DNA from: Heterostelium album PN500
Taxonomy: Eukaryota > Evosea > Eumycetozoa > Acytosteliales > Acytosteliaceae
Reading direction: 5' to 3'
NCBI RefSeq assembly: GCF_000004825.1
Contig: NW_008805094.1
Location: 236,478-300,477 of the forward strand
DNA length: 64,000 bases
Part shown: in pieces, positions 26,060 to 40,295 of the stretch
Layout of the letters: every line of letters starts with the position of its first letter
How positions within the stretch are numbered: position 1 is the first letter of the stretch
Position numbers and translations under genes: made by a program
Notes under the pieces: generated by a model
Told to the model about the DNA's origin: nothing
Seen by the model: only the letters and a program-made list of their open reading frames with translations
Databases searched by the model: none

Positions 26060-26500
26060 TTATACAATTCTTGGTTTTCTTGAATGCTTTGCTTTCTTTG
26101 ATTTCTTTTTCTTTGGGAAATTTTGCTTCTTCTTTACTTTAAGTTTTTTATCTTGCTTTGAAGTAGTATTATCGTTGTCATCGACCATATCAGTATCTTT
26201 TTCAACTGTCAGTGGAACCATTTCTGGTGGTAAAGTTAAATCTATAATACATTAAAGTACAATAATTTAAAATAAATAAGGTATAAGTAAGTTATAACTG
26301 TAGCTTAACAAAACTATAAACAAAATAACAAATCTGTATTATATTTACTACATACCTTGTACGTCTGTTTGTTGTGATTTCATATGTGCATTCATTTTAT
26401 CGACTGTTTGTTGTAAGAGTGTATCGTTGTATGGCTGCAGCTTAGCTCTCATGAGAGCAACATTCTTTAATCTTCTCTTTGATCTTACAGAGTTACCCAT
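26060..26500 (-). CDS. Small basic nucleolar-type protein, LLPH/DUF2423-like
   Basis: Two exons (26500-26356 and 26241-26060) join at phase 1 to 108 residues. The N-terminus 'MGNSVRSKRRLKNVALMRAK' fits the LLPH/DUF2423 family signature, in which a short 'K/N-S-x-R-S-K' head precedes basic residues. The C-terminus is a run of lysine/arginine clusters (KKKQNFPKKKKSKKAKHSRK) of the nuclear and nucleolar localisation type. Family members (human LLPH, yeast homologues) are linked to 60S ribosome biogenesis; that role is inferred here. It was too short and too split to stand out as an open frame. An acidic patch (DTDMVDDND) separates the two ends. Confidence 0.7.
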
Positions 26501-27524
26501 CTTTGTGATATCTCTATGTGTATATATATAAATAAAAAAATAAATAAATTAATAAAAAAAATTGAATCAATTTTTAACAACCGAACGAGGAGTTTTTTTT
26601 TTTTTCTAATTTTTTTTTAAATTTTTTAGAAAAATAAATAAATCAATTAACAATCAATTATGAGATTTAAATCTACAACTTCTGATTCACTAGAAAAGAC
26701 AGATAGAAACATAAATATAAAAATATTATTTGAACGATAAAGATTCAATTTTGGTTGTTTATGAGTAAAATAATTATTAAATAAAAATTTTATTAAGATT
26801 TATGTTATTTCTTAGTTGGTTTAATGTCGCTTTAAACTCACCTGAACTATTGATTATCAGGTGAGAAGCTTGACAGTTGATTAGATTGGTTGTTGGTGTT
26901 GTTGTTGTTGTTGTGTTGAATGATTGAATGGGTTATAAGTTGTTTGAAGGTTGACCTTGGACTGGACAGATACATTCAGATAGAGATGATATGGCAACGA
27001 GAGCAATTGAGTATTGAGTATTGACCAACGGTAGAAGGTGGCGACAACATTAATGATTTGCTAATTCCAATAGAAATGAAATTAGTTAATTAACAATATA
27101 CTTGCCTTGTTGTTGCTAGAAGTAAAATAATGTTGTTGAGTATTAAATTGATCGCGAGCTAAAATCGAAATTGGTTGACTGAATCACTTTCAATTCACGG
27201 TTGGAAGTATTTCCACCTTGTTATTACTTATGTACATGATTGGGACTGTGTCTTTCCATTCATGCCAATTAAATAATAAGGAATCATTCAATTCCCCATA
27301 CCCAATATTACTACTGCCAACCAACCAACTAACTAATTAATTTGCCTGTTTAAGCTATGTATTTTCTTTTTTACCACAGTTGTCGAAAAGAAAACATAAA
27401 AAACAAAATGACCTTTAAAGTAATTTACTTTAGAGAGTAAATTTAATTGAGCAATGTTGCTTCTTTGTTGTATATTGTTGTTGTTGTTGTATTGTAACAA
27501 GTAGTAATATTGGTCTTTCTTTCT

Positions 27525-27616
27525 TCTGCTTGGTGGCAGGTTTCTGCTTGGCGGCGTTAAAATCTGCTTGGTGGCAGTTAAAATCTGCTTAGTGGCAGAC
27601 GTCTGCTTGGTGGCAG
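27525..27616. repeat. Five-unit tandem array of a 15-bp hairpin motif
   Basis: Five copies of a 15-bp unit close to TCTGCTTGGTGGCAG begin at 27525, 27543, 27563, 27584 and 27602, so the spacing is 18-21 bp. Four copies keep CTGC...GCAG, which can fold into a small hairpin; the second copy is altered (GGCGGCG). The array opens the hairpin-rich island and differs sharply in composition from its AT-rich surroundings. Confidence 0.85.
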
Positions 27617-27689
27617 ATAATAAAGATCTAACATGATGACTACCTGTGTAATTTACATGTGATCGATTGGATCTTTCGAAACTAATGGT

Positions 27690-28463
27690 TGTCTACGTAG
27701 ACAGTCTATACCATAGACCCATCACATCTCGCTGTGAATCAATGGGCACGTATTGAAAATACGCACCCATTTCTTGGTATGAATCAATGGCACCACTCAG
27801 TGGTATCCATCTCTTGGTAATTAGACCTTTGAGTATCTCTCAGGTGCTGAAAGCAACAACCTGTTTGATTTGTATAGCTCTCTCCAAACATTAGGGTGCT
27901 TGGCGAACTTAACTGAACATCTTGATGTCCAATATGGTTCGGCTTTTAAAGTAAGTTAGTTTAGTTTAGTTAATCGAATCGCAAACCCGATAACATGACT
28001 TGACATGACATGACTAACAGTGTTAATTAGTTTAGTTTAGTTTAGTTAATCGAATCGCAAATCCGATAACATGACATGACATGACTAATAATAATAATAA
28101 TAATAGTTATAGTAATAATAATATCTTCGATATTAATATCTCTTTGTATTTATCTTTGTATTGTATTTATCTTTGTACAGTATTTATCTTGTAGAAATAG
28201 TAGTGGTAGTCGTTTGATTGTCTCTGACTTGGTGGTCGCACCAATACAAACTTGTCCTTGGCACGTTGCATGACATGCAAGTGTCTAAAGGCTACGCTAC
28301 TTGTTGGTTGCAACCTTTCGAGGTATGCCAGAGTCACACTCGGGTGACCCTCGAGTCGAACACGAAGTGTTACGAACCCATTTTAGATGCACATTGCCTG
28401 ACCATTTGAGGAACTCGAAATGGTTTTGCAGCTAACCCTTTTTTCACTCTCGCGTGAATAGGG
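27690..28463. repeat. Hairpin-dense non-coding island B
   Basis: Within about 770 bp there are more than ten short inverted repeats: TGTCTACGTAGACA (27690), GTCTA-TACCA-TAGAC (27704), ATGGG...CCCAT (27742-27770), ACCACTCAGTGGT (27792), ACATCTTGATGT (27917), TTGGTGGTCGCACCAA (28229), TTGCATGACATGCAA (28266), GGTTGCAACC (28306), GTCAC...GTGAC (28333), AACACGAAGTGTT (28359), a 10-bp stem at 28401-28424 and a CCC-TTCAC...GTGAA-GGG stem at 28436-28463. The DNA is much less AT-rich than the flanks and has no long open frame. It could be a degenerate mobile element or a structured RNA locus. Confidence 0.65.
27961..28074. repeat. Two direct repeats of about 38 bp, 76-bp period, in island B
   Basis: The sequence TAGTTTAGTTAATCGAATCG followed by CAAACCCGATAACATGAC at 27961-27998 is repeated at 28037-28074 with one substitution (CAAATCCG). 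Both are preceded by TTTAG repeats and followed by ATGACATGAC. Each copy contains ATCG...CGAT, able to form a four-base stem. Confidence 0.85.
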
Positions 28464-30149
28464 CGGTAATAATAACAATGTCTCTCTGAAGATATTCATC
28501 TATTCAATTGTTTAATTATTACACCATCTTGTATTGTCAGAAAAAAAATTATAAAAATATAAATAAATTAAAAAAGATATCGATATAGGATATAAATCTT
28601 TATCACTCTCTTTTCTCTCTCTCTTTTTTTTTTTTTTGTTTTCTCCTTTTCTCTTTTTCTCTCTCTTCTCTCTCTCTCTCTCTTATTTCTCTATCTATAT
28701 CTCTCTCTCTCTCTTCTAGGTTTTATCAATGAATATTAACAAGATAGTGTGAAAGAAAAATTAAACCAAAAATTAAAAAAATCCAACCAAAATTAAAATT
28801 AAATTAAAAAAAATTTTAATTTTAACTGGTTATAATCTGGATTATAAAGAAGAAGATATCACAAACAACCTTTTTTTACTGTAATAAAACATCCAACAAA
28901 AATAAAAAATTAAACAATACAAATATTAAAGCTTTAAATTGAAATAAAAAAATAATAAAATATATATAATATATAAATAATTTAAAAGATGTTTGTTTTA
29001 TAATATTTATCTATTTGGTTGTTGTTGAGTTTTAATGAAAATGAATGAAAAAATAAAAGTTCACAACTATTATTCAAAAAAAAGCAAATAATAATGCCTA
29101 TTAAAGAAAAATAAACAATTTAACACCAAAAAATTATTTTATTTTTGCTTTACAAAATCAAATATATTTAACTCGTCTCACAGTCACCCATTTATTTGGT
29201 TGTAAAAAATATCATACTACTTCAACTTAAGTCAATATTTCATTTTTATCATATGTCAATAAATAAAATAAATAAATTTCCAATTCATACAAGATAATCA
29301 TTGATTAAATAGTTATTTTTATAAAAATGATATGACTCCTTACAAATGTAATGTGAGCTTATAAATTGATTGTGATCAAATTTATTTTTTTTTGTTTTTT
29401 TTTTTTATTTTTTCAAATAAAATGAAGGAATTTTTTAATATTTAATTTTTTTTTTTTTTTTTTTTTTGCAAAATCATCACAATTAATTGTATGTGCACAA
29501 GGAAAAAAGATTTTTTGCCTATTTTTATGAACATAGTATGAAAGTCTCACACACATAATTAATCTTTAAAACAAACATACCAACAATAGATTATTATCAT
29601 CATCATTGTCAACTCGCGAAAAACACTCAACAACAGACAACATCCAACAACAACCAAACTCAACAACACATCGAAACTTGACAACATCGTTCAAATCAAA
29701 TCTTAATTAAATATTTAATTTTATTCAATAATTATTTTGTAACCAGGTTGCATTAATTTCAATTTTAATAATATTATTTGATATTACATTATAACTTCCT
29801 CTTCTTCTTCCCCTTCTTACACTAACCCCCTTCTCACTCCTCCTCTTCCTCCTTCCCCAAATTTTTAATATAACTTACCAAATTGATCAACTCAAAAAAA
29901 AACAAATAGCTATTCTAGTGAAAAACATAAGAAACATAGCAAAATAAAATAACTTTAGTTGGTTAAAGGTATTATTCTTCTTCTTTTAAAGCAAAAGCAA
30001 AACAACTGATCAAATCAAATAAATTAAGATCGTACAACCCTCGAAAAGTACAACCCTTGACAGGTCAAAGCAGTTCATATTGTTTGAAAGTAAATCTCAA
30101 TCACCAATTTTCATACTACTGTAACTATTACAGTAGTATATAGAGTACG

Positions 30150-32795
30150 ATGTTTGACCGTTTACTAAAGAGATCTAAAGAAAAAGAAAAAGAAAAAGAT
30201 AAAGAAAAAGAGAAAGATAAGGATAAGAAATCTGACAACAACAGCAACAATAATAATAAAGGAAATGTAGATAATAACAATAGCAATAATAATTATAAGA
30301 ATAATATAACAACAATTCCAATACCAACAACACCATTTTCAAAGACAAATAATAATAATAATAATAATAACAATAGTAATAATAAAAATAATGAGGTTGG
30401 ATATCTTGATATTCCTGATATGGTAATCAATAGTAGACTTGGTAGCGCTAAAAATGGATCACCATCACCATCGCCTTCACCGGCACTCACACCACTACTC
30501 AATGTACCACCACCAACAACAACATCAAAAGTAAAGTCTGGCAGTGCAGCTGTTACTATCAACAATAACAACAACAACAACAAAACACCACAACTACAGG
30601 TGGAAACAACAGCTTCATCTTTCACAGACAAACCACACTCACTTCTCAATCATACACTACAACAACAACACGACAGAGAACAGTCAGCAGCTACAGGACA
30701 ATCACACCTCAAAGTGCCATCTCCACTCTCCTCACCGGTGCACAGACGTAACACCATTGACAATGGCTACGGTTACTCTCTCAGCGGACAACTCACCCTC
30801 GAAAGATCACCATCCTACGAGCAATCGATGCGCGCATTATCACCATCGCTCTTTTCCTTCATGTAAATATCCAATGCAATCTCTCTTTTACATATCTGTA
30901 TCAATACTAATTAATCAATTCTATATAGACAATCGATTGGATACATGGATGAGTACTATGAAACAGAGGAGAATGTACAGCGCTATTTGAACTCGGTTTG
31001 GGACAGTGTTTTGTTGCCAAAGACTCAGACGTTGGCGCGTATCGATCTGAAGTTTATTGTGCGTCGTGGCATTCCCGATGGAAAGCGTGCGTCGGTGTGG
31101 CGTCTGATGACCGGCTACGAGGAGTTGCAGACCAGCTCCGAGTTTGATTTGATATCGCTGGCGCTGAACGGCGAGGGCGTACCCAAGAAGTTTCGAAACA
31201 TTCCGTCGTTCGGAGGCATTCTCTCGCCGTCCGACCACTTCCTCACCGAGGAGGGTATCCAGCAGGTCAAGCGCATCCTCTCGATCACCGCACTCAACTT
31301 CCCAGAGGTTGAATACTGTCCTGTGATACCGGACATCGTACACATCCTCCTGATATTCATGTCGGATCTCGAGGCATACGCCATACTCAACCTCCTCATC
31401 CAACAATCGAAAGACAACTTCTATCGCTACCTAAACACCAACAATCGTGACTGTACATCATTCCTTCTAACCTTTGATTCTCTAGTTGAAATACAAATAC
31501 CAAAATTATATAAACGTAAGTTGTTATATAACATAAACAACATAAACAACACAAACACAACATAAACAACCTAAACAATATAAGCACAAACATAACCTAA
31601 ACCCAACATAAACAACATAAACACAAACACAAACAATATAAACAACACAAAACATAAACAACATAAACAACATAAACACCATAAATATAAACAACATAAA
31701 AATGTGTATTAACAAAACATCTTGTTTGTTTCATGAAAAATAGATATGATAGGATTAGGTATAACGAATTGTAGTGTTTTCGCGGAGGAATGGTTCTCGA
31801 GACTGTTTGTATCGCATCTACCGTTCCAGATTGTGTTGAGAGTGTTCGATTGTTTCTTGTGTGAGGGCTACAAGGCGTTGTATCGTGTCGCTCTCGGTCT
31901 GTTGATGATTCACAAGCGAGTGCTGTTGAAGGCAACGTCATCGGAGCAGTTTCTATCGATTTTGAAAAACTATAACCTTCAACTGAGCAGTCCTGACGAA
32001 CTGATGAAGAGAGCATTCAGTATACATCTCAAACGACGTGACCTACTCAGCATCGACGCAAAACAAACACCGAAACTCTACAACATCTCCGAACCACAAC
32101 TACCGATATACTATAGACCAAAAGTTACAACACCATCATCTATATTAGAAGAAGATCATGTAAGTAATAATAACAAAGTTAATCTATATATATAAACAAA
32201 CTAATCTAATTCTAATTCTAATCATTTACTTTCAGTATGAAATAATATGGGCTTGGTTACCACATAAATATTGTATATGTGATCCTAAAGTTATATTCAA
32301 TTCAAACAACGATGGATTTAATCTACGATTGCTCTGTGAGAGAGTAGAGAATCAATCGCCTATCTTTATCTTTATACGAACACACAAAGGAGATGTATTT
32401 GGTTTCTTTACTGATGACGATCTAACACCGTCCGATACATTTGGATCACAGTAAGTAACAGCTGTTTGTTTACAACTTGAATGCGATTGTGCACACGAAT
32501 ATTTACTAATATAATAATAATAACTATATAACTTTATAGTGATACATTTGTATTTAGTTTGAAACCACATGTAGGTGTATATAAACCGAATAATAAGAAT
32601 GAATTGTATTTAAAGGTTACTAGTGGTGCGAATAGAGATCTCTGGGTTGGTCAATCTCAGTTGGGTGAACATGCAATTCATTTGGATAGAGATTTGAACG
32701 GTACTAGCAGTTGTTGTGAAACCTTTGACAGTCCTTGTTTATGTTCCGATACAAAGTTTACTTGTGCAACATTAGAAGCAATTACACTAGTATAA
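30150..32795 (+). CDS. TBC1D24-like protein: TBC domain plus TLDc domain
   Basis: Five exons (30150-30862, 30929-31515, 31744-32159, 32236-32450, 32540-32795) give 728 residues. The first 235 residues are low complexity (lysine/glutamate, asparagine, proline/serine). The TBC domain spans exons 2-3: 'LKFIVRRGIPDGKRASVWRL', 'FGGILSPSDHFLTEEGIQQV', 'LPFQIVLRVFDCFLCEGYKA', 'LYRVALGLLM'. The usual 'GYCQG' glutamine finger is replaced by 'YCPVIPD', just as TBC1D24 has 'FCPALP', so Rab-GAP catalysis is unlikely. Exons 4-5 encode a TLDc domain ('IWAWLPHKYCICDPKVIFNS', 'HAIHLDRDLNGTSSCCETFD', 'LCSDTKFTCATLEAI'). By family (TBC1D24, fly Skywalker) it works in vesicle traffic, with phosphoinositide binding through the TBC part and oxidative-stress links through TLDc. 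Confidence 0.92.
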
Positions 32796-37147: not shown

Positions 37148-39351
37148 ATGTTCACGAATCGAGTAAATAGATATAACAAAATCATTTACAATAATATTAA
37201 TAAATATAATACTTGTTATAAATGTTATTCTAATCACAATATTTATATTTATAGTAGTAGAAGTAGTAGTAGTTTTAACAAAAACTACAACAATTTTAAG
37301 TGTGTTGCTATTAGAGATTTTACAAGTGGTAACATCAATAGAGATAAACAAAATGATAGTTTAATAATAGATAGCAACAAAATTTACAACAACAACAACA
37401 ACAACAACAACAGCAATCACACTAAAAGTAAAGATGATAAAGTTATTGTTGAAGTATCAAATAGAATCATCTCTTCATTGAATGATCAAGAGAAAAGATA
37501 TTTCGAGCTATTCAAGAGTGTAGCAAAACATAATAATTTACAAGATAAAGTAGAATTAAGAGTTTCTGGTGGTTGGGTTAGAAATAAAGTATGACTATAT
37601 CAATAAAATAATAGTTGTTTATTGTTTATTCACAAATTATGTTTTTTTTTTAGTTACTTTCTATTGATAGTTCAAGTAGCGGTTATTTCGATATAGACAT
37701 TGCAATCAGTGGTATAACAGGTAGAGAATTCGTAGATTTAATAGAACATTATAGAATAGAACATGGTTTATCACAAAAGAAATGTAATTATCAAACCTTT
37801 ACCAACTATAAAGTTAAAGTTAAAGTTAGAGTGTTTAATAATGATGTCGTGTTTGTTTCTATTTAAATAGATTTAGTTAGAAGAAATCCAGATAAATCAA
37901 AACATTTAGAGACTGCATCGATTGTTATTGATGGTTATACATTTGATTTCACTGGTTTGCGAGCAGAGCAATATGATACTCATACTAGAATACCTCAAAT
38001 TGTAAAGTTTACAAAAACTTATAAAATAATAATAATTATTATTATTTTAGTGATTATTAATAATATTATATTGTTATTGATTAGGTTGATGGTACACCTA
38101 CAACAGATGCATTTCGTAGAGATATTACAATCAATTCATTGTATTTCAATTTGGAGACATATCGTGTTGAAGATTTCACTGGCAATGGCATTGATGATCT
38201 GTGTAACAAATACATTCGAACACCACTCTCACCTCATATCACATTGATAGAAGATCCACTTCGTGCACTAAGAGTTTTAAGATTTGCAACTAGATTTCAT
38301 TTCAATATAGATCCTTCTTTATATAGATCAATTGAGTCAATTGAAGTTAGAGTAAGTGATTTTTGTTATAGTTCATTAACAAACAAAAACAATAACAATA
38401 CTAAAATATATGTAATCTCTATTTATATATATATATATATATATATTATTAGAGTGCGCTTGGATATAAAGTTAGTAAAGAAAGAATAAAGAATGAATTT
38501 TCGTTGATGATGTCTAGTTATGATAGTGGTGCAATTCAATACTTTAGATATTTGGTTGATACCAATTTGGTGGATGTAGTTTTCCAATCGACTGGTTCAA
38601 TACAGATTACCAAAGAAGATTGGTTGCTATCGCTCAATTATTTGGAACATTCGTTGCGATTCAAACATCAGTTATCGAAAGAGATGCAGGAGGATTTCAT
38701 TCTCGGTGTTCTGATGTTGCCCTTGAAGCTAAAGTATCACGATGCTCTGAATTTGGAGTATCTATTGGAGCATTTCAAATCGTCAAAGAAACAGGTTAGA
38801 ACGGTGCTGTCAATTATATCGTCACCAGAGATTCTCATCAATCAGGTGATCAAAACATTGTTGTTACCTTCGATGACCATCACCAAAGAATCGTTGACAC
38901 AACCACATCTTTTCGATCAAATAACACTACCACTACTAGGTTGGCTAAGAAACAACGAGTGTTGGCAAATGGGATTATCAATATCAGCCGTTCATTCTGA
39001 AATCATCAATCTACCAATTGCTCATGTTGATAAAGGTATGAATTAATAAGATCATTTTAATTATGTATATGTATTAATATAAACTATTATATTTATTTAG
39101 ATTTGTTTTGGAATGATTTTAGAAATAGTTTAGAATCTCTAGAGTCGATTGCCAATCAAAAGCATTGTCTTGATGGTCATGAGGTGAAGAGTGTTCTAGG
39201 AATAGTGGATAATGGTCAGCCCATATCAAATATAATTCATGAGCTAATGATTTGGCAATGGAAGCAGCTATGTTCTTCCGGTAATATCAATAGAGATGAA
39301 TCGAAGCTTTTTATAAAAAAGCTATGGAATGACCAAACAAATAAAACTTAA
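37148..39351 (+). CDS. CCA-adding enzyme (tRNA nucleotidyltransferase)
   Basis: Six exons (37148-37588, 37654-37783, 37871-38001, 38085-38351, 38453-39035, 39101-39351) give 600 residues. The enzyme adds or repairs the 3'-CCA end of tRNAs. Signatures of the eukaryotic class II type are present in order: 'RVSGGWVRNK', the metal-binding 'FDIDIAIS' (DxD), 'RNPDKSKHLETA', 'FDFTGLRAEQY', 'DAFRRDITINSLYFNLETYR', 'VEDFTGNGIDDLCN' and 'DPLRALRVLRFATRF'. The first roughly 90 residues are asparagine/serine/tyrosine-rich and basic at the start, suiting a mitochondrial presequence, so dual nuclear/cytosolic and mitochondrial supply by alternative starts is possible. The exon 2 donor (TGTAATT at 37783) is inferred from protein continuity; the unspliced frame would stop 80 bp later. 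Confidence 0.9.
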
Positions 39352-39468
39352 AAAAGTACACTATTAAAAGTGAATATTTGTACATTATATACTTTCAAAT
39401 CTGATCACTCTGTAGTCATAGATCTAAAGATGTTTCAAGTGAGAATATATAATATAAAACACGAAATA

Positions 39469-39521
39469 GCAGGTTAATATCAATACCTGCAATTTGTTGA
39501 CTGATCATGAGTCAACAAATT
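39469..39521. repeat. Two adjacent hairpins after the CCA-enzyme gene
   Basis: GCAGGT...ACCTGC (39469-39490, ten-base loop) is directly followed by a perfect 12-bp stem, AATTTGTTGACT...AGTCAACAAATT (39491-39521, seven-base loop GATCATG). A T run and a long A run come next. Together they could form a strong structure in DNA or in the 3' end of a transcript. Confidence 0.85.
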
Positions 39522-39562
39522 TTTTTTTTCAAAAAAAAAAAAAAAAAAAAAAACTTTTTAGT

Positions 39563-40031
39563 TGTAACCAATGGGTGTGATGCTTGTGGAGCAGATGATA
39601 ATTAGTTAACTTCCCTTTTGGCATAGCGGGAAAACCCATTTTTTGTAAAGTAGTAATACCTGAGGTATTATACCTCTTAGGATAGTACTCTTTATCAAAA
39701 GGTTGATTGAGAGATATGTAGAAAAGGTCTTGATTCGATATTAATAATGAGATCGGTACCGAGCTTTATTTATTATCTTTTAATTAAACATACCTTGATT
39801 CGATATTAATAATGAGATATCGAAACAATGGAGTTCCTCTCGGGTATTTATACTTTTGGTTTACCATCGGTTGGACGGGATTCGTTGATGACTTCATCCT
39901 GGTAAACAATTCTAGAGCTTCTCCGGTTGGTGATTCACCAATGGACCGTTAATAAACGTCTTCTGGAATTTCTATGGAATTTCTAAGAGTGTTCACTGAA
40001 ATATCCATGACTTTTCTACACATTGGTTACA
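39563..40031. mobile_element. Putative 469-bp element with TGTAACCAAT terminal inverted repeats
   Basis: TGTAACCAAT at 39563-39572 is matched by its perfect reverse complement ATTGGTTACA at 40022-40031. The ends read TG...CA, as in LTRs, and also suit a MITE. Inside are a 17-bp palindrome (39654-39670), a 25-bp perfect direct repeat (39729-39753 and 39794-39818), GTTTACCA...TGGTAAAC (39859-39907) and TTGGTGATTCACCAA (39927-39941). There is no open frame. The right end lies 51 bp from the 3' end of a tRNA-His gene, and dictyostelid retroelements are known to favour tRNA-gene flanks. No clear target-site duplication is seen, so the assignment is tentative. Confidence 0.5.
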
Positions 40032-40082
40032 CTTACATTAGTCTTTACCGCATGCGGGCATGATTTTATTAAATATTTAAGT

Positions 40083-40152
40083 GCTCGGACCTGGAATCGA
40101 ACCAGGGTTAGGAGGACCACAACCTCATGTACTGCCACTATACGATCCGAGC
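40083..40152 (-). tRNA. tRNA-His (GTG anticodon)
   Basis: Read on the minus strand, the 7-bp acceptor stem is GCTCGGA/TCCGAGC. The D arm is GTA-TAGTGGCAG-TAC, the anticodon loop TTGTGGT carries GTG (His), and the T arm is CCTGG-TTCGATT-CCAGG. The A box and B box (GGTTCGATTCC) are intact. The discriminator base encoded after the acceptor is A. There is no intron. The first anticodon-stem pair is T-C, a mismatch. The core matches the eukaryotic tRNA-His pattern 'GTATAGTGG...GTTGTGG'. The extra 5' G typical of His tRNAs is normally added after transcription. Confidence 0.95.
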
Positions 40153-40295
40153 ATATGATGATTTCAATAAATCAATCTGAACATGTCATTAATCGACGAA
40201 TTCATTCCATTCAAAGTTTTCTATTTTATAATCAAGACAGATCTTTCACGTATTTATAGCTTTTTACTCCAACGTACGTAAGTCCACTCCAAGAA

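Follow-up and report, generated by a model that had tools for sequence, protein, structure and literature searches.

A hairpin-dense island between divergent genes

The window, that is, the whole 64,000-nucleotide stretch of Heterostelium album PN500 DNA that was analysed, corresponds to positions 236478-300477 of one contig in a 32.9-Mb genome of 39 contigs. The hairpin-dense island is located in a 3.6-kb spacer between two divergent genes (Table 1). No Pfam match at E <= 1 was obtained for the two frames of the left gene. The GC contents of the three island blocks are 0.43, 0.25 and 0.48, in order (0.39 overall); the right flank has 0.26 followed by 0.22, and the left flank 0.32 followed by 0.18. 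The abrupt change of base composition described in the original prediction was therefore seen on the right; on the left the change is stepwise, and an AT-rich dip lies in the middle of the island. The left flank (26831-27524), folded at a span of 60 nt, gave z +0.3 on the plus strand and -1.7 on the minus strand (10/200 shuffles). Since this flank has no clear structure, the predicted boundaries of the island are good.

Two further features lie to the left. A strong lone hairpin, CTCACCTGA...TCAGGTGAG (26837-26865), is present at the left GC step, where it precedes the ATG of the minus-strand gene by approximately 340 bases; the fold of 26825-26880 had z -4.8 on the minus strand (1/500 shuffles) and -4.0 on the plus strand (0/500). 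Just left of the island is a perfect 14-bp inverted repeat (27302-27315 and 27500-27513) with 184 nt between its arms.

Table 1. Features of the island and its neighbouring genes (positions are those of the window; fractions are shuffles reaching the observed value)
Feature	Position	Strand	Evidence or remark
Left neighbour gene	frames 26060-26251, 26348-26548; ATG at 26500	minus	small
Hairpin-dense island	27525-28463	.	hairpin count vs. shuffles; alone among 682 tiles
String of about ten hairpins, each 20-71 nt	27525-27943	-	best folded as minus-strand RNA
Five-unit hairpin array, TCTGC-TTGGTG-GCAGA	27525-27620	.	z -4.1 minus (0/500), -3.5 plus (2/500)
Chained word-sharing palindromes	27690-27718	.	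TGTCTAC/GTAGACA, TAGAC-A-GTCTA, GTCTAT-ACC-ATAGAC
Hairpin with 14-bp stem	27741-27771	-	two adjacent mid-stem G-U on minus; 3-nt loop
Sister hairpin of 27741-27771	27782-27815	-	z -4.45 minus (0/500)
Hairpin with 9-bp inner stem	27902-27943	-	two minus-strand G-U pairs; z -4.18 minus (0/500)
61-bp repeat pair, AT-richer middle block	27949-28009, 28025-28085	.	92% identical
Branched stem-loop domain	28199-28301	+	z -2.39 (6/400)
Branched domain closed by GTTGGTTGCAA/TTGCAGCTAAC	28303-28436	+	z -3.75 (0/400); mean pair probability 0.90
Last hairpin, ttcac-TCTCGC-gtgaa	28443-28458	.	before AT-rich spacer
Right neighbour gene, RabGAP-TBC	frames 30915-31565, 31737-32195; likely ATG 30150	plus	Pfam

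Excess of short hairpins

Hairpins were counted when they had perfect arms of at least 4 bp, at least two G/C per arm and a loop of 3-8 nt, and dinucleotide shuffles served as controls. The island contained 31 such hairpins against 8.56 expected (sd 2.99), a count reached by none of 500 shuffles, confirming that its excess of short hairpins is genuine. Arms of at least 5 bp numbered 12 (2.94 expected; 0/500), and arms of at least 6 bp with loops of up to 12 nt numbered 5 (1.38 expected; 3/500). A true loop of 3-8 nt is present in 27 of the 31 hairpins, the other four being palindromes that need an opened centre. Because 10 of these 27 lie in repeat arrays (six in the five-fold array and four in the 61-bp repeats), the 31 hairpins do not represent 31 independent events. 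In the first stem count (27520-28490), arms of at least 6 bp with two G/C were mildly unusual (5 vs. 1.46; 3/300 shuffles), the same arms with three G/C were ordinary (154/300 shuffles reach the count), arms of at least 7 bp occurred once (0.45 expected; 111/300) and arms of at least 8 bp did not occur. As counts with longer or GC-richer arms are ordinary, the anomaly of the island consists of many short stems and not of long ones. The many inverted repeats that had been predicted are thus present as short hairpins; inverted arms of up to 24 bp, which had also been proposed, were not recovered, because none of the 17 inverted pairs of at least 12 nt detected in 26800-29200 had both arms inside the island.

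Folding gave a signal on both strands, the stronger one on the minus strand. The unlimited fold of 27520-28490 had z -3.3 (plus) and -6.0 (minus), with 0/20 shuffles reaching either value; the span-60 fold of 27525-28463 had z -4.4 (plus) and -6.8 (minus; 0/200 each), and z -5.0 (0/200) when G-U pairs were forbidden. The island therefore folds more stably than its dinucleotide shuffles, as a structured non-coding RNA does, and the excess persists or rises at a span of 60 nt, in agreement with the suggestion that the stems are independent rather than parts of one fold.

The excess varied with the length of the spacer between the arms. Across the island, spacers of 3-4 nt (11 vs. 2.6 expected) and 5-6 nt (14 vs. 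2.6) were raised, and those of 0-2 nt more weakly so (12 vs. 4.5); none of 200 shuffles reached any of the three counts. The excess was absent at spacers of 7-8 nt (2 vs. 2.3) and 9-12 nt (7 vs. 4.8), and spacers of 13-20 nt (20 vs. 10.0) and 41-80 nt (67 vs. 48) were also raised (1/200 shuffles each). For spacers of 5-6 nt, the left half had 7 against 1.34 expected (0/200), the region 27621-27948, which excludes the five-fold array, had 3 against 0.94 (14/200) and the right block had 3 against 1.27 (28/200), so that this excess rests largely on the repeat arrays. Spacers of 3-4 nt were raised in the left half, in the left half without the array (27621-27948; 4 vs. 0.96) and in the right block (3, 4 and 1 of 200 shuffles, respectively). 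Those of 0-2 nt were not clearly raised within either half, where 16 and 41 of 200 shuffles reached the counts. Spacers of 3-6 nt are the loop sizes favoured by a folded single strand, whereas dyad sites for proteins need none such.

E. coli 16S and 23S rRNA were sampled in four stretches of 940 nt, which have a GC content of 0.52-0.55 compared with 0.39 in the island and showed no excess at spacers of 3-6 nt (z -0.9 to 1.6). Their largest z at any spacer was 2.2 (spacer 0-2, one stretch), and their span-60 z values on the sense strand were -2.65, -2.43, -0.72 and -2.33. Local perfect hairpins are thus more numerous in the island than in these four stretches; the difference may reflect an array of separate hairpins, young hairpins that have yet to erode, or a mutational origin. 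Since the rRNA stretches lack the excess, the simple claim that the island looks like a structured RNA is weakened.

Rarity of the island

The hairpin count was extended to 682 tiles of 900 bases, covering 117,468 bases in all, from the window and from 18 loci elsewhere in the same genome; these loci came from a search with an AAT repeat and are not a random sample of the genome. The set omits L001, L021 and L022, which are the island, and L009, which falls within the window. Tile 27451 had 28 hairpins against 6.9 expected (z 8.4). The nine best tiles all overlapped the island, and the next separate place had z 3.5.

Thermodynamic tiling gave a milder contrast. With 150-nt tiles averaged over approximately 975 bases (L009 kept; L001, L021 and L022 left out), 27076-28050 scored -1.93, 39226-40200 scored -1.59 and the AT-rich locus L012 scored -1.42. 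Among 300-nt tiles with G-U pairs forbidden, tile 39451 was best (-5.64) and the island tile 27601 was fourth (-4.04). Among the 465 of 510 window tiles of 400 nt that were scored, tile 27501 on the minus strand was best (-5.73), the best separate place reaching -4.17. Under a strict stem rule, the island was outside the 20 highest tiles of the window profile, which was headed by tile 39001. Two high-scoring loci, L012 and L017, resemble by eye AT-rich simple sequence and coding sequence, respectively. The region 39226-40200, which the tiling had suggested as a sister island, was rejected, its hairpin count being far weaker (tile 39301, 12 vs. 5.5, z 2.9).

Repeat units and local duplication

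The five tandem hairpin units of the original prediction are present, starting at 27525, 27543, 27563, 27584 and 27602 (steps of 18, 20, 21 and 18 nt); four have perfect arms (ctgc...gcag) and the second lacks its 3' arm. The pair of direct repeats that had been put at 38 bp is also there and is longer, at 61 nt, but neither copy folds significantly (z between -1.5 and +0.7). Overlapping palindromes that share words, like those at 27690-27718, were also found at 28331-28371. The hairpin at 27741-27771 (z -5.72 minus, 0/500 shuffles; -3.51 plus, 3/500) and its sister belong to units of approximately 45 nt with common flanks, TGAATCAATGG ... CCATYTCTTGG, and quite different inner stems, each of which is paired; the 5' flanks (27727-27745 and 27772-27790) are 84% identical and the 3' flanks were matched by eye. 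Kept flanks around different paired stems fit template switching, which can create a new stem in one event (Monttinen and Loytynoja 2022, PMC8794818, from an excerpt of the paper).

Direct repeats were in excess at offsets of 5-20 (24 vs. 7.4), 21-50 (31 vs. 13.3) and 51-100 (42 vs. 21.4), with 0/200 shuffles in each class. Local duplication has enlarged the island. Outside the repeat arrays the arms vary from hairpin to hairpin, and an alignment of five hairpins revealed no common sequence. The 17-bp repeat TTGTATTTATCTTTGTA recurs nearly three times at 28144-28190, in the interval separating the two GC-rich blocks.

Strand preference of the two halves

The left half (27525-27943) had z -6.48 on the minus strand (0/400 shuffles) and -2.16 on the plus strand (9/400). 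This signal is not due to the five-fold repeat, because 27621-27948, from which the array is excluded, still had z -6.56 (minus; 0/200) against -2.95 (plus). The difference between strands at tile 27501 was 3.94, the second largest of 232 tiles, and the next tile, 27751, ranked ninth with a difference of 3.16, likewise favouring the minus strand; a comparable difference occurs elsewhere, at tile 54501 (-3.99). The minus bias arises because G-U pairs complete the stems of 27741-27771 and 27902-27943 on that strand, where 27782-27815 also folds better; on the plus strand, 27902-27943 had z -1.97 (22/500).

In the right half, 28199-28442 folded better on the plus strand (z -2.85 vs. -1.73 minus), which argues against one simple minus-strand transcript. 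When 28199-28465 was folded at a span of 60 nt, plus (-2.4) and minus (-2.8) scored alike. Six consecutive T (28439-28444) start two bases past the domain 28303-28436. The idea of a Pol III gene, suggested by this T run, was not accompanied by a promoter word. A telomerase RNA, which would need a template of more than one telomere repeat, was considered for the 8-nt word CTAACCCT at 28432 and set aside, since such 8-mers hit five times in the window and chance explains it.

Coding potential, RNA families and copy number

As predicted, the island has no long open frame. Stop-to-stop frames that overlap it encode no more than 119 aa (the next being 71, 63, 62 and 53 aa), the two longest lying on the minus strand (27333-27692 and 28167-28382). 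Codon scores of 200-base tiles were -0.00 at 27400-27600 and 0.03 at 28150-28350, compared with -0.01 to 0.15 in seven held-out coding stretches and -0.26 to -1.00 in 11 AT-rich intergenic ones; the remaining island tiles (-0.08 to -0.46) were below coding and mostly above the intergenic controls. At the curated cut-off, frames 28167-28382, 27784-27945 and 28218-28409 had no Pfam match. A search of 4227 Rfam families at the gathering threshold gave no match in the island and only a single tRNA elsewhere in the window; the best weak match in the spacer had E 6.2 (19.9 bits, where 50 would be required).

A DNA search of the 32.9-Mb genome with a 991-base query gave 61 matches, namely, the island and 60 at an AAT microsatellite (query 572-640). 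Among the best candidates scored, no second copy of 27515-28080 or 28170-28480 was found at E <= 10, so the island stands alone at the sensitivity of the search, unlike a MITE or fold-back element, which would be multi-copy; the proposal of a non-autonomous mobile element was not upheld. No plasmid relative was found in 72,556 records. None of the 17 inverted pairs had arms at both island ends; four bracket the island at a distance, with 72-92% complementarity (the best being 27215-27226/28470-28481, 12 nt, 92%).

Interpretation of the island

We propose an account of what was observed, namely, the hairpin excess, the loop sizes, the repeat units, the strand bias and the single copy at the search's sensitivity. 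The best explanation, narrowly, is that the island is a single-copy non-coding locus yielding an RNA made of a string of hairpins, a reading which we advance tentatively. It is preferred because both the loop sizes and, as its main support, the strand bias indicate a folded single strand. Perfect stems of 4-7 bp would have been made in place by fold-back template switching during replication and multiplied in place by short tandem duplication, and would then have been retained because they form when a single-stranded product folds. The left half would be read mainly as the minus strand, giving a row of independent hairpins of approximately 20-70 nt, and the right half (28199-28436) would either belong to the same putative minus transcript or form a plus-strand domain of its own, with the T run as its end. 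A function might be, for example, to offer repeated hairpin sites to an RNA-binding protein.

The raised GC content in an AT-rich spacer, the lack of a long frame or an Rfam family and the single copy also count for an RNA. Against it count the dependence of the loop-size argument on repeat arrays, the change of preferred strand at 28199-28442, the four rRNA stretches without such a hairpin excess, strand differences equally large elsewhere, 61-bp repeats that hardly fold, a GC content of 17% in D. discoideum lncRNAs, below ORFs at 25% (PMC5295588, in the part of the text available), and the lack of CCCAYAA in 26500-30200. That 10 of the 27 true loops lie in arrays and that codon scores exceed most intergenic controls makes an RNA locus less likely, and a mutational hot spot or exons more likely.

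The structured RNA locus of the original prediction thus leads, owing to the minus bias of the left half and the loop sizes, with a functionless mutational hot spot nearly as likely. At such a place, repeated fold-back template switching and slippage would generate palindromes and tandem copies that drift. This possibility, somewhat unlikely in itself, ranks close behind because transcription and conservation of the island are putative. The chained palindromes at 27690-27718 and 28331-28371, the accompanying excess of direct repeats and a hairpin excess above that of four rRNA stretches are what a hot spot would leave. It does not account for the one-sided strand bias across the left half, nor for loops of 3-6 nt being more in excess than those of 0-2 nt, with none at 7-12 nt, and nothing similar was found in 117 kb of the same genome (non-random loci).

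It is improbable that the island is cis-regulatory DNA, with its dyads serving as dimeric transcription factor sites for the flanking genes. The spacer lies between divergent genes, the five-fold unit repeats both arms and spacer as clustered sites do, and palindromes with spacers of 0-2 nt are in excess island-wide. However, this last excess is not clear within either half, the arms differ among hairpins outside the arrays, so that no single factor fits, and the minus-strand bias would be an accident.

A remnant of a mobile element of hairpin DNA (MITE, fold-back or organelle-type) is very unlikely. Hairpin units and GC-rich clusters within AT-rich DNA, the perfect 14-bp inverted repeat on the left and the four bracketing pairs recall such an element, but the island is single copy at the sensitivity of the search and no inverted pair marks both its ends. 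The palindromic and double-hairpin elements of some organelle genomes are likewise small, GC-rich and set in AT-rich DNA, sometimes in tandem; these are dispersed and multi-copy, whereas the island is one locus with copies only within itself. Retrotransposons, moreover, make up less than 1% in examined dictyostelids other than D. discoideum (PMC5006619, excerpt). Least probable of all is that the island holds short exons spliced into the transcript of a protein gene not yet recognised. The minus frames of 119 and 71 aa, two tiles touching the coding range of codon scores and other tiles mostly above intergenic controls may be cited in favour, but the steps of the array do not keep a reading frame and three frames lack a Pfam match.

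Comparison with known systems

The hairpin-string RNA that we prefer would have much in common with structured lncRNAs and other hairpin-string RNAs, which are likewise non-coding, single copy, locally folded and raised in GC within AT-rich spacers; the island differs in having no Rfam match, denser short hairpins than four rRNA stretches and putative transcription. Dictyostelid Class I RNAs, which come from the same amoeban group, are also non-coding and hairpin-based. They have a DUSE approximately 60 nt upstream, whereas the island has many hairpins in a row and no promoter word CCCAYAA within 26500-30200, although the P. pallidum form differs from this word, having two Cs (PMC7919456, excerpt). 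According to the part of PMC11014262 available, dictyostelid miRNAs and other ncRNAs are less AT-rich than spacers, a trait that the island shares with miRNA precursors, which most often measure 75-125 nt, longer than the 20-71 nt of the left-half elements. In Table 4 of PMC5282741, itself seen in excerpt, 4,505 P. pallidum transcripts aligned to the genome are classed as 'novel'; unannotated transcripts are therefore common. At loci of template switching, as far as the excerpt of PMC8794818 describes them, stems likewise appear whole and reverse-complement copies lie nearby; in the island, dozens of stems of putative template-switch origin are packed into 0.94 kb. Further background is available, again from excerpts, in PMC5911963 and PMC6592521. 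Among the papers listed in the literature searched, outside which most subscription papers lie, none described the locus or such islands.

A bolder version, which we consider unlikely, is a 'hairpin nursery', in which hairpins would be born continually at one place by template switching and the transcript would be a multi-site hairpin scaffold. If it were true, RNA stems would be born and multiplied here at a density above that of the four rRNA stretches tested. The origin of RNA stems is an old question, and the locus, which belongs to an amoeba amenable to culture and mutation, would let an origin by template switching be tested directly. If the locus were silent, it would be a strong example of a mutational hot spot generating palindromes.

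Other features of the window

A pyrimidine-rich tract at 28590-28719, which ends in CTCTCTTCTAG and lies upstream of the TBC gene, resembles a splice acceptor or a core-promoter tract, and GTAAGT at 27951 could be a donor. A second structured spacer, 39350-40060, lies between a plus-strand gene and a tRNA-His gene (40081-40152, minus strand) and folds strongly. It contains a repeated CTTGATTCGATATTAATAATGAGAT and the outer words GTAACCAATG and CATTGGTTAC in inverse order, and is a candidate for a small element situated by a tRNA gene.
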